Of a stretch of DNA of 5,754 nucleotides, positions 1 through 5,754 are shown piece after piece. This stretch comes from an uncultured bacterium. GTDB taxonomy: Bacteria > CALINM01. The position numbers and the translations under genes were made by a program. How positions within the stretch are numbered: the first letter of the stretch is position 1; each line of letters begins with the position of its first letter. The notes below the pieces were generated by a model. The model had not been told where the DNA came from and searched no databases. It worked only from the letters and a program-made list of their open reading frames with translations. The stretch is from contig CALINM010000048.1 of NCBI GenBank assembly GCA_938045315.1, positions 1-5,754 on the forward strand, read 5' to 3'.

Positions 1-237
1 GGCTGCCAGTTCTCCCACCCTGTGATAACCAAAGGTTGCAATTTTAGAAGAGGGTTTTTGCATAATTTTTAGAGCAAAAAAACTTAGTAAGAGGGAGGCT
101 CCATCAGTAAAAACATGGCCAGCGTCACTTAATAATGCTAAGCTGTTACTTACTATTCCACCTATTATTTCGGAAATTAAAATGAGAAAGGTAATTATTA
201 TGCCAAAGAGTAGTTTTTTTTCATCACTTAAAGCCAT
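1..237 (-). CDS. Cation diffusion facilitator (CDF) family transporter, N-terminal 79 aa, cut by window edge
   Basis: This is the start of a CDF metal/proton antiporter of the inner membrane, a family that exports Zn(II) and sometimes Co, Cd or Fe. The gene runs off the left edge, so only residues 1-79 are visible; the family is usually about 300 aa. Seen directly: a hydrophobic first helix at about residues 9-29, then the family signature LLSDAGHVFTDG with H41 and D45 in the HxxxD spacing of the zinc site in helix 2, a second helix, and the typical cytoplasmic loop sequence FGYHRVGELAA. The ATG at 237 shares one base with the stop of the preceding 53-aa gene (TAATG), which points to translational coupling and to membership of the arsenic operon. 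The metal cannot be told from this part, though the H/D site favours zinc-type CDFs. The family call is secure. Confidence 0.93.
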   Translation of the reverse strand, partial: MALSDEKKLLFGIIITFLILISEIIGGIVSNSLALLSDAGHVFTDGASLLLSFFALKIMQKPSSKIATFGYHRVGELAA

Positions 238-398
238 TATATACCTACTTTTAGTCCTTTATTTTTGCTTTCTTCAATGCGTTTTATAATAGTTTTTAGC
301 ATTTTTAATGCCTCTTCCTTTTCGCCATCAAGAATAATTTCTTTAATTTTGATTATTTCATCCTCCGAAAAGGTTACCACTGCCTTTTTTTCACTCAT
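237..398 (-). CDS. Small charged protein, 53 aa, paralogue of the preceding 49-aa gene
   Basis: I do not recognise a named family. The ATG at 398 has a good ribosome site (AAGGAG, 412-407) eight bases upstream, and the stop overlaps the start of the CDF gene by one base, so this is very probably a real gene. The product is rich in Lys, Glu and Ile, with no membrane segment and no cysteine. It opens with a short strand-like stretch (KAVVTF, residues 5-10). A probable amphipathic helix (about 12-22), a short turn (LDGE) and a second helix (about 27-44) follow, and then a basic tail. Aligned without gaps from its KAV motif, it matches the neighbouring 49-aa protein at 16 of 38 positions, including KAV, F, EI, IK and the A-K-L-I-K-I pattern of the second helix. 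This suggests a tandem duplication. A regulatory or protein-binding role is only a guess. Confidence 0.8.
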   Translation of the reverse strand: MSEKKAVVTFSEDEIIKIKEIILDGEKEEALKMLKTIIKRIEESKNKGLKVGI

Positions 399-429
399 TT
401 GTTCCACTCCTTAAAAGGTTTGATATTGG

Positions 430-448
430 GAGCTTTGCCCGAAAGCTC
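430..448. other. Perfect hairpin in the gap between the two small paralogous genes
   Basis: The bases form a perfect 7-bp inverted repeat (GAGCTTT / AAAGCTC) around a 5-base loop. It lies in the 62-base gap between the 49-aa and 53-aa genes. No T-tract follows on either strand, so it does not look like an intrinsic terminator. In the minus-strand transcript it could be an mRNA processing or stability element that changes the expression of the downstream genes. The structure is seen; the role is inferred. Confidence 0.5.
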
Positions 449-460
449 AAAAACAGGCCT

Positions 461-610
461 TCAGTGGGGCTCTGTATAATCCTTTATCTTTTTATCAATC
501 CTAATTAAAGTCTTGATAGCCAACTCAAAATCTTCATTCTCAACAATCTTTTTTATCTCTTCAATCTCTTCGCTATTAAAGTTTATTACTGCTTTATTTT
601 TACAGTTCAT
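461..610 (-). CDS. Small charged protein, 49 aa, paralogue of the following 53-aa gene
   Basis: The ATG at 610 overlaps the TGA of the DUF2703 gene (ATGA, 4 bases), a classic sign of translational coupling. The local ribosome site is weak (only GGGA upstream), so coupling probably drives its translation. The product is highly charged, soluble and has one cysteine (C3). Its build matches the next gene: a KAVINF strand-like stretch, a helix beginning SEEIEEIKKI, and a second helix around residues 26-43 (AIKTLIRIDKKIK). It shares 16 of 38 aligned positions with the 53-aa protein. I do not recognise a characterised family. The shared pattern and operon position argue that both are real genes rather than chance frames. 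Confidence 0.78.
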   Translation of the reverse strand: MNCKNKAVINFNSEEIEEIKKIVENEDFELAIKTLIRIDKKIKDYTEPH

Positions 611-1008
611 TTTTTTATTCCCTGTATAATTTGGGTTATTTCTTTCAAAATAGCTTTAATTATCAACTTTTCCTCAACTACCTCTTTTTCCTCGCTTTCA
701 TCTATTATAGTTCTGCATTCGCTGTCACCACAGGGACCACAACAAGAGCTTTGACCAATCTTAACATCCAAAATGTCTTCGATCTTTTTGCCGTTTATAA
801 TGATTTCATTAGAAGCAAGTGGATTTTCCTTAAATTCTTTCATATTAAGGGCTTTTTTTCTAAAACTTACATCCACATCAATGCACTTAAGCAAAGATTC
901 TAATTTTTCTATGGCAGACTTTATGTTAAGATAGGTTTTATTACACCTATCACAGGTACTGCCCTTTTCGTCAACCAATCTTTGCCAGATAATATCAATT
1001 TTTTTCAT
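607..1008 (-). CDS. DUF2703-family cysteine-rich, probably thioredoxin-like protein, 133 aa
   Basis: The sequence matches the DUF2703 pattern as I know it: an N-terminal CxxC (C19-D-R-C22), a central NGKKIEDIL segment like the strand after the cis-proline loop in thioredoxin folds, and the hallmark SSCCGPCGDSECRT (C89, C90, C93, C98). It has seven cysteines in 133 residues (also C42), no signal peptide and no membrane helix, so it should be cytoplasmic. The biochemical function is not established to my knowledge. It starts 16 bases after acr3 with an AAAGGA ribosome site, and its stop overlaps the next small gene. No ArsD or ArsA is visible, so a thiol-rich protein beside the arsenite pump could bind or relay As(III) or reduce disulfides; that role is inference. 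Family call is fairly sure, function is open. Confidence 0.85.
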   Translation of the reverse strand: MKKIDIIWQRLVDEKGSTCDRCNKTYLNIKSAIEKLESLLKCIDVDVSFRKKALNMKEFKENPLASNEIIINGKKIEDILDVKIGQSSCCGPCGDSECRTIIDESEEKEVVEEKLIIKAILKEITQIIQGIKK

Positions 1009-1024
1009 TACTTGTATCCTTTAA

Positions 1025-2101
1025 TTATGGTATTTCGACATTTACTACCTTACAATACTGATCTTTGAAATATTTTTTCTGAAAATAAAGTGATAAGTTC
1101 ACCAAGCTGATTAATACTGGTACCTCTACCAATGGTCCAATTACAGCTGCAAAGGCCTCTCCAGAATTTATACCGAATACCGCTACAGCAACAGCAATAG
1201 CCAACTCAAAGTTATTGCTTGCTGCAGTGAAAGAGAGCGTTGCACTCTTTTCATAATTGGCACCAAACTTTATACTCATAAAAAAGGATATTATGAACAT
1301 AAAGACAAAATATATGAGTAATGGTATAGCAACCCTTATGACATCAAGTGGAAGTTTAACAATGTACTCTCCTTTAAGAGTAAACATAACCACAATAGTA
1401 AAGAGTAAGGCAATAAGAGTGATAGGACTTATTTTTGGTATAAACTTCTCTTCATACCACTCTTTTCCCTTTGTTTTCAAACCTATGATACGGGATATAA
1501 CACCTCCAATAAATGGAATACCCAGGTAGATAAATACACTCTCTGCAATTTGTCCCATGGTAACGGCAACTGTTGTTCCTTTAAGTCCAAAAAGTGGGGG
1601 CAAAACAGTGATAAATATATAGGCATATACGGAGTAAAATAAAACTTGAAATATAGAATTAAATGCAACAAGTCCTGCTGCATACTCTCTATCCCCACAG
1701 GCTAAATCATTCCATACTATAACCATAGCTATACAACGGGCAAGACCTATCATAATAAGACCATACATATAATGAGGATAACTTCCAAGAAAGATAATCG
1801 CCAGAAAAAACATGAGGAAAGGCCCAATAATCCAGTTTTGTATCAATGAAAGGGTTAGTACCTTTTTATCTCTAAAAACTTCTCCAAGCTCTTCATATTT
1901 TACCTTTGCAAGGGGTGGATACATCATAAGGATCAGTCCAATAGCTATGGGGATGTTTGTAGTGCCATATTGAAAAATATTTATAAAATCTGTAACTTTC
2001 GGAAAAAGATAACCACTGAATACACCAACAAACATTGCTAAAAAAATCCATAATGTAAGATACCTATCTAAAAAAGACAGTTTTTTACCTACTTTCTCCA
2101 T
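1025..2101 (-). CDS. acr3: Arsenite efflux transporter Acr3, 358 aa
   Basis: This is an Acr3 arsenite/proton antiporter of the BASS superfamily, located in the inner membrane, which expels the As(III) made by ArsC. The length (358 aa) is normal for the family, and ten hydrophobic segments can be traced from about residue 15 to 340. Key signatures are present: [19 protein letters not shown] with the essential helix-4 cysteine at C123, [18 protein letters not shown] in helix 9, and GPLVEVPVL with the acidic E326 in helix 10. The chosen ATG (2101) lies inside the end of arsC, with an overlap of 17 bases, and has a strong AGGAGG site six bases upstream within arsC, so the two proteins are probably made in coupled fashion. 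It is distinct from the unrelated 12-helix ArsB family. No damage is seen. Confidence 0.97.
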
Positions 2102-2516
2102 TCTTTTCCTCCTGTAATAAATTTAATATTCTGGTTTTAATTTCGTCCCTTACAGACCTGAATACTCTCAATACTTCTTCCTCTGTACCAGTAGCTTTTG
2201 CTGGATCTGGCAGTCCCCAGTGAAGGCGCTTTATTTTTGGCGGAGTCATAGGGCAGGTTTCTTCTGCATCTCCACAGAGGGTAATCACATAGTCTACCTG
2301 GGTTAGAATATTTTCATCAATAGACTTGGACTTATAATTAGAAATATCTATGCCCACTTCCTTCATCACTGAAACAGCCTTTGGATGAACAAATCCTGCT
2401 GGATTAAGGCCTGCTGAAAATGCTATGATTTTATTTTTACCAATCGCATTTGCTATACCTTCTGCCATCTGACTTCTACAGGAATTCCCCGTGCAGAGGA
2501 ATAATACTTTTAACAT
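2085..2516 (-). CDS. arsC: Arsenate reductase ArsC, thioredoxin-coupled (low-molecular-weight phosphatase fold), 143 aa
   Basis: It reduces arsenate to arsenite in the cytoplasm by a three-cysteine relay and is then recycled by thioredoxin. The catalytic P-loop lies at residues 8-15 (C8-TGNSC-R14-S15, the CX5R motif of low-molecular-weight tyrosine phosphatases). The relay cysteines C81 and C88 sit in CGDAEETCP, matching the C10/C82/C89 arrangement of the Staphylococcus aureus plasmid enzyme. The catalytic aspartate is D104 in GLPDP. All active residues are intact and the length is slightly above the usual 130-140 aa. The ATG at 2516 overlaps the end of arsR by seven bases, with an AGGAGA site inside arsR. 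The three cysteines exclude a simple phosphatase and the glutaredoxin-type ArsC. Confidence 0.97.
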
Positions 2517-2875
2517 TTACATCTCCTAAGTTCCCTCTTTATTATTTTCTTCTCTTCAAGAAACCTATTCAATCTTTTCCTTTCTTCTTCAATTTCAAGA
2601 TCATCTATATGTTCAATTGTAGAATAAACTAAAAATCTTTTAAAAAGGTCATCATTAGTTATTGAATAAAACGACCATTTCCCCTCCTTTCTATCCCTAA
2701 TTAACCCTGCTTCTTTTAAAACAGATAGATGAAAGGAGATCTTTGGCTGAACAGTATCAAAAGCTGCAACAAGATCGCAAACACAAAGCTCTCCTCCTTC
2801 AAGAAGCTTAAGCAACTTTAATCTGGTCTCATCTGAAAGGGCTTTATATATTATGTTTATATCTTTTAATGCCAA
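2510..2875 (-). CDS. arsR: Arsenite-responsive repressor ArsR, 121 aa, TTG start
   Basis: A winged-helix repressor of the ArsR/SmtB family that leaves its operator when As(III) or Sb(III) binds. The classic sensor motif ELCVCDL is present with C31 and C33, followed by the recognition helix region ([17 protein letters not shown], residues 43-59) and the wing ([11 protein letters not shown]). The start is TTG at 2875, chosen because AAGGAGGT lies six bases upstream and no in-frame ATG precedes the sensor and DNA-binding motifs. Unusual points are a long charged C-terminal helix and a final pair of cysteines (C119, C121, the last residue), which could be an extra thiol site. It is the fourth gene of the operon rather than the first, so it probably represses the promoter ahead of the permease gene. 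The rare start codon may hold its level low. Confidence 0.96.
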
Positions 2876-2899: not shown

Positions 2900-3088
2900 T
2901 CAAGCTATTACTTTGCCCTGTTCTAAAATGCACAGGTTAGTAATTTTTTTCCCATCGTCGGTTACAATTTCAAACTCATAATCCTTAATTTTGCCTAAAT
3001 CTTTTAGGTTATCCAAAAAATCCCATAGCAGTTTCTGTGCTTCTTCGGGTGATAGATTGCTAAATATTATTTTTACCCGAGATTCCAT
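2900..3088 (-). CDS. Small protein of unknown function, 62 aa
   Basis: I do not recognise this protein. It looks real: the ATG at 3088 has AAGGAG (3100-3095) six bases upstream, it sits 19 bases after the thioredoxin-like gene and 24 bases before arsR, and no other frame there makes a better gene. Seen in the sequence: a strand-like VKIIF, a helix beginning SPEEAQKLLWDFLDNL, a strand-like YEFEIVTDDG, and a last strand NLCILEQGKVIA with one cysteine (C53). This reads as a small beta-alpha-beta-beta fold. There is no signal peptide, membrane helix or metal-binding motif. Its place between a thiol protein and arsR suggests an accessory role in the arsenic response, but nothing in the sequence shows what that is. 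Confidence 0.75.
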   Translation of the reverse strand: MESRVKIIFSNLSPEEAQKLLWDFLDNLKDLGKIKDYEFEIVTDDGKKITNLCILEQGKVIA

Positions 3089-3107: not shown

Positions 3108-3338
3108 TTAACTGATGAGTTTTTTTACTTTTTCTACATCAGGTAAGGGTTTCCCAGAGTGAACTAGCTTACCATTTACAACAAGCGCTGGCGTATTCAT
3201 AGTATACTTCATAATTTCCGCAATATCCTCAACCTTTTTCACATCCCCGTCGATACTAAGTTCAGCCATAGCCTTCTTTACAGTTTCATAAAGCTTCTTA
3301 CAATTTTCACAACCTGGCCCTAAAACTAATATTTCCAT
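3108..3338 (-). CDS. Small thioredoxin-like redox-active disulfide protein (MTH895/TM0996 type), 76 aa
   Basis: A minimal thioredoxin-fold protein. The active site is GPGCENCKKL with C10 and C13 (CxxC) just after the first strand, and the cis-proline loop is NTPALVVNG with P50 preceded by Thr; the usual GxxP-like end (SGKPLPDVEKV) follows. About 76-80 aa is the normal length for this archaeal/bacterial mini-thioredoxin group. It is cytoplasmic, with no signal peptide. It starts 12 bases after the permease gene, and its Shine-Dalgarno sequence shares bases with the permease stop codon. Members of this group are often encoded beside CSCS-motif permeases, so it may reduce cysteines of the permease. 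It could equally recycle ArsC, which needs a thioredoxin; both roles are inference. The fold assignment is strong. Confidence 0.92.
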   Translation of the reverse strand: MEILVLGPGCENCKKLYETVKKAMAELSIDGDVKKVEDIAEIMKYTMNTPALVVNGKLVHSGKPLPDVEKVKKLIS

Positions 3339-3344
3339 TATTAT

Positions 3345-3353
3345 ACCTCCTTA
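3345..3353 (-). promoter_or_regulatory. Ribosome binding site of the thioredoxin-like gene, overlapping the permease stop codon
   Basis: TAAGGAGGT contains both the TAA stop of the permease (3353-3351) and the full AAGGAGGT site, six bases before the ATG at 3338. Ribosomes ending the permease would sit over this site, so translation of the two genes is probably coupled. Confidence 0.8.
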
Positions 3354-4298
3354 AAGTATAATGTTAAACATATAACCAACAAAAATTATCGTTACTGTCA
3401 TTATTCCAACAAAAATATATAAGAGTTTTGGCCTTAAAACCTTTCTTAAAATAATCATCTCCGGCAAAGATAGAGCAGTCACTGCCATCATAAAAGCAAG
3501 AACAGTCCCCAGGGAGAGCCCCTTTTGCATTAGGGCGTACACAATTGGGATTACACCTGCCGCATTAGAATATAAAGGCACACCTAAGGCAACTGCAATA
3601 GGAACAGAGAAGAAGTTGTCCTTTCCTGCATATTTTACAAGAAAATCTTGAGGGACATATCCATGAATAAAACCACCAATACCAATCGCTATCAAAATAA
3701 ATAGCCAAACCTTTCTTATAATATCAAAGGTATTAAATTTAGCATAGGCAATTCTCTCTTTAAAAGTAGGGGATATAATTTCAGCTTCTCCCGTTTTAAT
3801 TTTGAACACATATTCTTCTACATATTTTTCAAGCTTTAACCTACCAATAACAATTCCACCAAAAATAGCAACAGTAAGACCTGTTACAAGATAGAGAAAA
3901 GCTATTTTCCAGCCAAAAAGGCCAAAAAGCATAACAAGGGCAACTTCGTTAACCATAGGTGATGAAATAAGAAAAGAGAAAGTGACACCCAGTGGTACCC
4001 CTGACTCCACAAATCCAATAAATAAAGGAACAGCTGAGCAAGAACAAAAGGGAGTAACCACACCAAGAAGTGCAGCAAGCACGTTACCTATAAACTCTTT
4101 TTTATGTGATAAATATCTTTTCGTCTTCTCTGGTGGGAAAAAACTACGTACAAATGAAACAATAAAAATTATTACAGCAAGGAGAATGAAAATTTTTAAA
4201 GTGTCATATATAAAAAATTCCAATGCATCCGAAAAATGGGAGCCCTTTTCAAGATTTAACAAATCATAAACTACATACCTGGAAAAACTTTTAAGCAT
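3351..4298 (-). CDS. Permease of the ArsP/YraQ (DUF318) family, 315 aa, first gene of the arsenic operon
   Basis: An inner-membrane permease with about eight hydrophobic segments (roughly 32-52, 70-96, 105-126, 129-155, 195-213, 230-255, 262-283, 291-312) and a charged cytoplasmic loop near 156-192. The family signature TPFCSCSAVPLFIGF (C85, C87) lies in the second segment, followed by SFLISSPMVNEVAL; the matching second-half motif is PLYSNAAGVIPI (about 241-252). The length is normal. Characterised ArsP proteins export trivalent organoarsenicals such as methylarsenite, which makes that a reasonable role here, but the family is broad and the substrate is not proven, so no symbol is given. The ATG at 4298 has only a weak GAG site. 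It is the promoter-proximal gene, about 40 bases from the predicted transcription start, and is followed closely by a mini-thioredoxin gene. Confidence 0.9.
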   Translation of the reverse strand: MLKSFSRYVVYDLLNLEKGSHFSDALEFFIYDTLKIFILLAVIIFIVSFVRSFFPPEKTKRYLSHKKEFIGNVLAALLGVVTPFCSCSAVPLFIGFVESGVPLGVTFSFLISSPMVNEVALVMLFGLFGWKIAFLYLVTGLTVAIFGGIVIGRLKLEKYVEEYVFKIKTGEAEIISPTFKERIAYAKFNTFDIIRKVWLFILIAIGIGGFIHGYVPQDFLVKYAGKDNFFSVPIAVALGVPLYSNAAGVIPIVYALMQKGLSLGTVLAFMMAVTALSLPEMIILRKVLRPKLLYIFVGIMTVTIIFVGYMFNIIL

Positions 4299-4526: not shown

Positions 4527-5754
4527 TTACAAAGTTTTTTCTAAAAAATCTTTATTTCTAGCAATATCAAAGAAAATATTAAAAAACTTTTGTAATTTGT
4601 CGAATACTCTTTCTCGTTTTTTCCCTCTCTCGTTGTCTTTTGAAAATCGTGAGATGGGGGGCAAAATTTGAGAAAATTCTACACCTATATCTGTTATAAA
4701 ACTATTACTAAAAGATTTTTCTATAAATTTATAAGTTTCTTGTTGGTTTAACTTTTCTTCTTCAATGATTTTATCCAATTCTTCTTTCATTTTTTTATGT
4801 ACAAACTCTGGCCATTTTTCTTCTATTATTGAGCTGGCATCAAATGATGCAATAAACTCGTTAATAAGTTCTCTTTTGTCTCGGAGTTTAACAGTCGAAT
4901 CAATTATTTTGTTAATTTCAGTAATAATTTCAACATCTTTTATATGTTCGTTTTTATATTTCTGTATAAGTCCCAGGATATAATCGATATTGATTTCTAT
5001 CTGTTTGATGAGCTCTATTTCAAAAACAAGGTCATCATTAATAATTTCTGCTTCTGCTTGCTTTGCTCTAAGAAATTCGTTGTAAAGGTCAATATAAATA
5101 CTAAGATAATCCTGAATCTGTCGCTCGCTTAGAATAATTTGGTCGCCTTGAAATTCGTCAAATGTTGATAGGATATTCTGCATTCGCAAAATCTCTCCAT
5201 ATAATTTGATAAATTTCTTTTTATCTGTCTCACTTTTAAAGTATTGATCAACGGGAAAATTCTCTAATAAGTTATCAACTAGCTCTTTGTATCCCGGTAC
5301 ATATTTTTCTCCATTGTGATAGCCGTTATAGTAATCCTGATATGGTCGCAAAAGCACAATTCCTCTTGCTTCCTTGTTTCCAAAGAGGGCAATGGCGTCG
5401 TTTGTGGCTTTCTCCAGATTGCGAAAACAAACAATATTACCATGAGTTTTTACCTTGTTTAATATACGGTTGGTACGGGAATAGGCTTGCAAAAGTCCGT
5501 GATAACGAAGATTTTTATCCACCCATAACGTGTTAAGTGTAGTGGCATCGAAGCCAGTTAAAAACATATTTACAACGATAAGAATATCTACCTCTCGGTT
5601 TTTCACCCGTTCGCTGAGATCTTTGTAGTAATTCTGGAATTTATCGGAAGAGGTATCAAACGATGTGCCAAACATGGCGTTGTAATCCCTGATGGCACTT
5701 TCCAGAAAATCGCGCGAATTCTGGTCAAGGCCGCTGGTATCTTCAGAGTTTTCG
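4527..5754 (-). CDS. hsdR: Type I restriction enzyme subunit R (HsdR), C-terminal 408 aa, 5' end outside window
   Basis: HsdR is the DNA-translocating and cleaving subunit of a type I restriction-modification complex. The open frame runs past the right edge; the first visible residues are ENSEDTSGLDQNSRDFLESA, so the apparent Met codon at 5675 is internal. The end of the second RecA-like motor domain is visible: motif V (MFLTGFDATTLNTLWVDKNL, about fragment residues 63-82) and motif VI (QAYSRTNR, about 89-96, with the arginine finger). These resemble EcoR124I-type (IC) HsdR proteins. Some 310 mostly helical, Lys/Glu-rich residues follow; this C-terminal region docks on the methylase in EcoR124I. 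The tail is complete, ending at a TAA codon. The nuclease and motifs I-IV, as well as hsdM and hsdS, must lie to the right. Base composition falls sharply toward the 3' end. Confidence 0.95.
   Translation of the reverse strand, partial: ENSEDTSGLDQNSRDFLESAIRDYNAMFGTSFDTSSDKFQNYYKDLSERVKNREVDILIVVNMFLTGFDATTLNTLWVDKNLRYHGLLQAYSRTNRILNKVKTHGNIVCFRNLEKATNDAIALFGNKEARGIVLLRPYQDYYNGYHNGEKYVPGYKELVDNLLENFPVDQYFKSETDKKKFIKLYGEILRMQNILSTFDEFQGDQIILSERQIQDYLSIYIDLYNEFLRAKQAEAEIINDDLVFEIELIKQIEINIDYILGLIQKYKNEHIKDVEIITEINKIIDSTVKLRDKRELINEFIASFDASSIIEEKWPEFVHKKMKEELDKIIEEEKLNQQETYKFIEKSFSNSFITDIGVEFSQILPPISRFSKDNERGKKRERVFDKLQKFFNIFFDIARNKDFLEKTL

Follow-up and report, generated by a model that had tools for sequence, protein, structure and literature searches.

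A probable selenoprotein and its tailless paralogue from an undescribed family of small helical-hairpin proteins encoded in a bacterial arsenic operon

The window analyzed here, that is, the whole stretch of 5,754 nucleotides, is contig C48 of G000, a fragmented 1.86-Mb genome of an uncultured bacterium. On its minus strand an arsenic operon is found in the order ArsP-type permease, Thioredoxin_3 protein, 62-aa protein, ArsR, ArsC, Acr3, DUF2703, a first small gene (gene 1), a second small gene of 53 codons (gene 2) and a cation diffusion facilitator (CDF) transporter (Table 1). The PF01758 protein is one that we take to be an Acr3 from its family and operon context, and the Thioredoxin_3 protein belongs to a homologous cluster matching NCBIfam TIGR00412. 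ArsA was not recognized within the window. The 62-aa protein (2900-3088, minus strand) between ArsR and the Thioredoxin_3 protein represents a small unannotated operon gene without family match. Upstream of the operon lies a large gene, present with its 3' part (4527-5753, minus strand), whose product, from reading its sequence, resembles the HsdR subunit of type I restriction systems.

Table 1. Positions of the genes and sequence elements in the window.
Feature	Position	Strand	Basis
CDF transporter, N-terminal part, truncated by the contig end	1..237	-	PF01545, E 7e-16
Gene 2, tailless 53-aa paralogue made of the core hairpin alone, without Cys/Sec	237..398	-	frame from its ATG
Gene 1 as extended, predicted 71-aa selenoprotein, first copy of the small family	395..610	-	translation with TGA = U
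bSECIS-like hairpin GAGCUUU-CGGGC-AAAGCUC	430..448	-	folding scan
Candidate selenocysteine codon, in-frame TGA in gene 1	461..463	-	position of the family-tail Cys
DUF2703 (thioredoxin-like family), immediately upstream of gene 1	607..1008	-	Pfam, E 4.5e-30
Presumed Acr3-type arsenite efflux permease	1025..2101	-	PF01758, E 2e-61
ArsC, arsenate reductase of the LMW phosphatase type	2085..2516	-	PF01451, E 2.5e-24
ArsR-family repressor	2510..2875	-	PF01022, E 7.6e-17
Thioredoxin_3 small redox protein (ArsE/MTH895-like)	3108..3338	-	PF13192, E 1e-24
ArsP-type permease	3351..4298	-	PF03773, E 5.8e-84

A sequence-only reading had described a tandem of tiny paralogous genes between DUF2703 and the CDF start. 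Both are indeed present on the minus strand, one at 461-610 (49 aa) and the other at 237-398 (53 aa), and their products can be aligned without gaps at 16 identical and 28 similar out of 39 positions (pairwise E 5e-6). The coupling overlaps mentioned in that reading are seen as well, with ATGA joining the DUF2703 stop to the ATG of the 49-aa frame and TAATG joining the stop of the 53-aa gene to the ATG of the CDF gene. However, while the 49-aa frame as such stands, its 3' boundary is most likely wrong, as read-through of the in-frame TGA leads to a 71-aa protein ending at position 395 (MNCKNKAV...YTEPH-U50-RPVFELSGKAPNIKPFKEWNK, then a stop; TGA translated as U). The stop of the extended gene 1 then shares an ATGA with the start of the 53-aa gene, so that each junction from DUF2703 to CDF is an overlap. 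Hence, the apparent 62-nt gap between the two small genes would be coding, since gene 1 probably continues past the TGA. What had been overlooked is this possible selenocysteine reading of the TGA together with the C-terminal tail telling the two copies apart.

For identifying relatives, an initial search gave weak matches, two of them being short frames beside ars genes, and seeded profile A1, followed by the 18-member profile A2. The profile search suggested in the sequence-only reading recovers a clearly separated set, with 18 matches at E ≤ 1.3e-15 (17 of them at ≤ 3e-17) from 15 of 386 genomes, the next best match being at 2e-4. Both window proteins match the family profile, which is built mostly from other genomes but includes the pair itself, at E 4e-17 and 8e-15. 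A contig scan with one subgroup as the query added metagenome-assembled loci of Deltaproteobacteria, other Proteobacteria, Chloroflexi and an actinobacterium, whereas a first contig scan employing DUF2703 gave no relatives of the pair. In total, 30 members of about 50-80 aa from 25 loci of varied bacterial genomes were collected. In plasmid and phage collections the family was not found. The surmise that it is undescribed holds, as neither the window pair nor the 18 A2 members have a match above the curated cut-offs of Pfam and NCBIfam (weak ones are far below), the profile search against PDB sequences gave no solved structure matching the family, and a description is absent from the open-access literature, leaving an account in a subscription journal possible.

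The family core can be written as vxL-xxE-xxELExIIxDxDxExAxxFLKxxIxxK, with a single invariant alanine, and is in most members followed by a conserved tail, whose forms include CKPxFE, KSHLDGxxDPV and YQRGGHIG. The KSHLD and YQRGGHIG subgroups as well as the tailless copies do not possess Cys or Sec at the tail position. With much of the family lacking such a residue, tail chemistry cannot be the sole function, and these two subgroups must work differently or by docking. At least two copies per locus recur (L057, L061, L111 and L114), and at L114 a tailless first copy adjoins a tailed one, an arrangement like that in the window. In the L061/L062 subgroup, the tail is YQRGGHIGxAKL and genes for NifU/CBS or sulfate metabolism lie beside the family gene; the tandem second copy of L061 lacks the N-terminal part.

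The TGA of gene 1 occupies exactly the position at which the family tail has its cysteine (as in HCKPTFEW and GCKPVFEW). Members with cysteine show TGT or TGC at this position (L057 with two copies, L059 and L064) and tails such as HCKPTFEWGAAEPSLLKEF (L064), GCKPVFEWQGKEPQILTEM and HCKPAF (L057) and GCKPAFEVEG (L059). A TGA at the equivalent codon is also present at locus L070 from genome G099, an unrelated genome of another family, where read-through gives ATKEK-U-KPVFELRGANIPEFRY, i.e., a tail reading TKEK-U-KPVFELRG. These two are the only UGA members known, and the exact equivalence of Cys and TGA is observed in two genomes. Downstream of the TGA, both read-through tails align gap-free with the CKPxFE tails and, scored against three Cys tails, outscore each of the other 15,251 TGA triplets in the retrieved DNA. 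Against the model of the Cys-bearing CKP subgroup, the tail contributes 26.7 bits in the window protein and 23.2 bits in that of L070, and the full scores of both exceed all 200 scores obtained with shuffled tails. Scans of viral contigs for DNA encoding such a TGA tail gave nothing except one chance match, L147, which was rejected as a relative because the family core is absent upstream of its TGA-tail match. In Rfam, nothing matched around the TGA.

The TGA could also be a true stop, with the window and L070 genes encoding tailless forms and the downstream tail being a relic left after a nonsense change from Cys (TGC/TGT) to TGA. Such a change would take a single step, and tailless members do occur (the 53-aa gene of the window and the first copy of L114). 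Nevertheless, this would require that two deeply diverged genes each acquired a nonsense mutation independently, at one and the same codon, and still preserved their tails. The cores of the window and L070 proteins share only 15 of 47 residues, so that inheritance of a single broken gene from a recent ancestor is unlikely. Moreover, each tail remains open in frame until a stop codon and resembles the Cys tails more closely than the sequence following any other TGA does. Between the two tails, pS is 0.56 and pN 0.30 (dN/dS 0.37, 15 codons), a substitution pattern suggesting coding constraint.

The genomes carrying the two UGA members also encode tRNA-Sec, which speaks against a mere stop. In G000, the genome of the window, this tRNA scores 70.2 bits and SelA is found at 513 bits (cut-off 268). 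The tRNA-Sec of G099 reaches the top score of the set (82.3 bits), and ARAGORN assigns both tRNAs as SeC with anticodon tca. SelA was not found in G099, a fragmented metagenome-assembled genome of roughly 500 contigs, and is absent from several genomes bearing non-UGA members. The genome of the window does not reassign UGA in general, since the DUF2703 frame of this operon also ends in TGA.

The bSECIS model demands a loop of 3-9 nt, a stem of 4-16 bp, a distance of 16-37 nt from the UGA to the loop, a G within the first two loop positions and a minimum free energy of ≤ -7.5 kcal/mol (PMC13188914). With a 7-bp stem, a loop 19 nt past the UGA and G at loop position 2, the hairpin in the window complies with the rules for loop, stem and spacing, and reaches -7.5 kcal/mol in some folding windows. 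At L070, the hairpin (spacing 18 nt) has suitable geometry but missed the energy cut-off in the scan. Stability is not above that of shuffled sequences (z of -0.32 for the window and -0.1 for L070), and 8 of 136 ORF-ending TGAs of low GC content (6%) pass the identical scan. Hence, the hairpin is supporting but not decisive evidence for selenocysteine, and this weakness leaves room for a true stop. Among the Cys members, six are without such a hairpin, while L063 passes. Weighing both sides, a genuine stop appears rather improbable to us. The TGA probably encodes selenocysteine, and the family is likely a new one among selenoproteins.

Purifying selection, which the sequence-only reading had proposed to verify by dN/dS, is evident for close copies (0.17 for the L111 pair), whereas for the window pair, as for the core comparison with L070, the ratio is unusable due to saturated dS. 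Other related pairs likewise have saturated dS, with pN between 0.07 and 0.2; copies linked to CO dehydrogenase show a pS of 0.82 versus a pN of 0.07.

That homologues exist at comparable loci is clear from the gene neighborhoods. An ars-type neighbor lies within 1.5 kb at 16 of the 25 family loci, compared to 1 of 43 control loci, where ars-type comprises ArsP, ArsR, ArsE, ArsG, Acr3, ArsF, ArsM, ArsC and DGC and a neighbor was counted only if its assignment did not rest on the locus itself. The sole control locus with such neighbors, L040, encodes a sensor kinase beside an ars operon and is not a family member. Neighbor clusters comprise the ArsP permease, ArsR, Thioredoxin_3/ArsE, CcdA-like/ArsG, Acr3, ArsF, ArsM, ArsC and DGC; the domain match of presumed ArsG proteins is to a DsbD-type transmembrane domain, and they are so named after the arsEFG operon.

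The remaining 9 of the 25 family loci have no ars neighbors inside 1.5 kb. A third copy in G000 (L067, contig C212, 851-1033), with the tail KCGNIFSPG, follows a gene for what we take, from reading its sequence, to be a CooS-like CO dehydrogenase. The family copy of L065 (contig C80 of G001) adjoins a presumed CooS-like gene in the same way. At L058 (contig C8 of G228, 5399-7316), a member is found downstream of genes for an HgcB ferredoxin, a CdhD-domain (HgcA-like) protein and a CMD-like protein. The HgcB match is above the NCBIfam cut-off and forms, with the CdhD-domain protein, an hgcAB-like pair, so that this is probably a mercury-methylation locus, as judged from its gene content. Other copies are close to NifU or sulfur-metabolism genes (G285 and G148). 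Close to members of the CKPxFE type, an FeS-domain protein is encoded at L057 and L059 (PF04060 in both) and at L064, the latter having a C-terminal part like the gamma subunit of acetyl-CoA decarbonylase. That family members also occur next to hgcAB-like and CO dehydrogenase genes hints at a broader role with metals.

The previous characterization of the pair as highly charged and helix-rich falls short as a full description, since in most members a conserved tail follows the helical hairpin. An AlphaFold2 model of the 53-aa protein, based on a 16-sequence alignment, predicts helices at residues 12-24 and 27-46 (mean pLDDT 76.5). For L104, the prediction is likewise a hairpin of this kind, with helices at 13-24 and 28-56 and a low-confidence end, and it serves as a rough check only, as it was modeled from the single sequence without alignment. 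Fold searches with both models gave a best Foldseek E of 1.9 and VIA Z values of at most 3.2. The layout of an extended N-terminus followed by two helices, the monomer model showing only the helices, would also be compatible with a ribbon-helix-helix-like protein (strand, helix, helix) that binds DNA and tunes ars transcription together with ArsR, and small dimeric regulators are common in ars-type operons. However, searching Pfam with the 18 members (E ≤ 1) brought up no ribbon-helix-helix family, and the profile matches to PDB sequences contain no corresponding chain, leaving membership unsupported by both searches. As a Sec/Cys tail is unusual in such proteins too, a regulatory role of this kind seems unlikely.

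We therefore lean toward regarding the pair, with reasonable though far from full confidence, as accessory proteins of arsenic/metal operons from an undescribed family, of which the upstream one would be Sec-decoded and carry a hairpin plus a flexible tail with the motif [U/C]-[K/R]-P-x-F-E, and the downstream one the hairpin only. Beyond selenocysteine insertion, we infer oligomerization and, from genomic context, ligand and partner. The hairpins would form a homo- or heteromer, self-association being probable, and the tailless 53-aa copy may be the partner subunit of the Sec-tailed protein. The selenol of the tail, or the thiol in Cys homologues, might bind or redox-cycle trivalent arsenic, be kept reduced by thioredoxin-like partners (DUF2703 and Thioredoxin_3/ArsE; CcdA/ArsG plus ArsF in relatives) and pass the arsenic on to the Acr3 or ArsP efflux permease. 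An As(III)-binding or redox-active tail is favored because members of the CKPxFE subgroup have no reactive group in common other than the Sec/Cys of the tail, and because the operon encodes several thioredoxin-like proteins. The pair may have the heteromer or adaptor role originally envisaged. An adaptor could be a membrane-associated or assembly subunit on the Acr3, ArsP or CDF permeases with the tail as a docking peptide rather than a metal or redox site, in line with the frequent adjacency of ArsP or Acr3 genes and with several conserved tail forms that are not all thiol-bearing. On the other hand, the Cys/Sec position is kept throughout the CKPxFE subgroup, Sec use normally implies reactive selenium chemistry, and copies beside CooS or hgcAB-like genes have no recognized adjacent permease in the mapped stretches; we thus consider pure docking doubtful, if less so than a regulatory role.

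More speculatively, the Sec-tailed and tailless proteins could constitute a heteromeric carrier between thioredoxin-like reductants and the Acr3/ArsP pumps within a selenium-dependent module for arsenic, metals or organometals, whose scaffold, fitted with different tails, is used again next to CO dehydrogenase and hgcAB-like genes, an extension that we put forward tentatively and with some doubt. Selenols have a very high affinity for As(III) and Hg, so that a Sec tail encoded among arsenic genes would provide a direct and testable link between selenium use and metalloid detoxification. If the selenocysteine reading is correct, the selenoprotein catalogue gains a family and many ars operons a missing component, one which gene callers overlook twice, owing to its very small size and to a Sec codon that is taken as a stop.

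Among known systems, the ArsD-type metallochaperone is similar in the proposed role of a small soluble As(III) carrier handing over to an efflux system, but there is no sequence match, and ArsD uses several cysteines whereas the tail described here has a single Sec/Cys. ArsE, ArsF and ArsG are encoded in the same operons and are among the commonest neighbors of the family, yet they are membrane or thioredoxin-fold proteins, while the small family represents an unrelated helical hairpin. Like the selenoproteins in the catalogue of 119 prokaryotic families and subfamilies (Zhang et al. 2026, PMC13188914), gene 1 has a UGA at a conserved Cys position, Cys homologues elsewhere and Sec machinery in the genome, and it shares a metal/organometal operon setting with SAO genes, HgcA/HgcB and arsenite methyltransferase. 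In contrast, no UxPxF or UKPxFE motif in a helical protein of about 70 aa is listed there, and none of the NCBIfam models, in which many of the catalogued families are represented, matches this one. Finally, although DUF2703 differs from the small family in fold and size and is not homologous to it, this thioredoxin-like protein (PMC6514093) is encoded directly adjacent, with the ATGA overlap, and is the probable redox partner of the gene 1 product.
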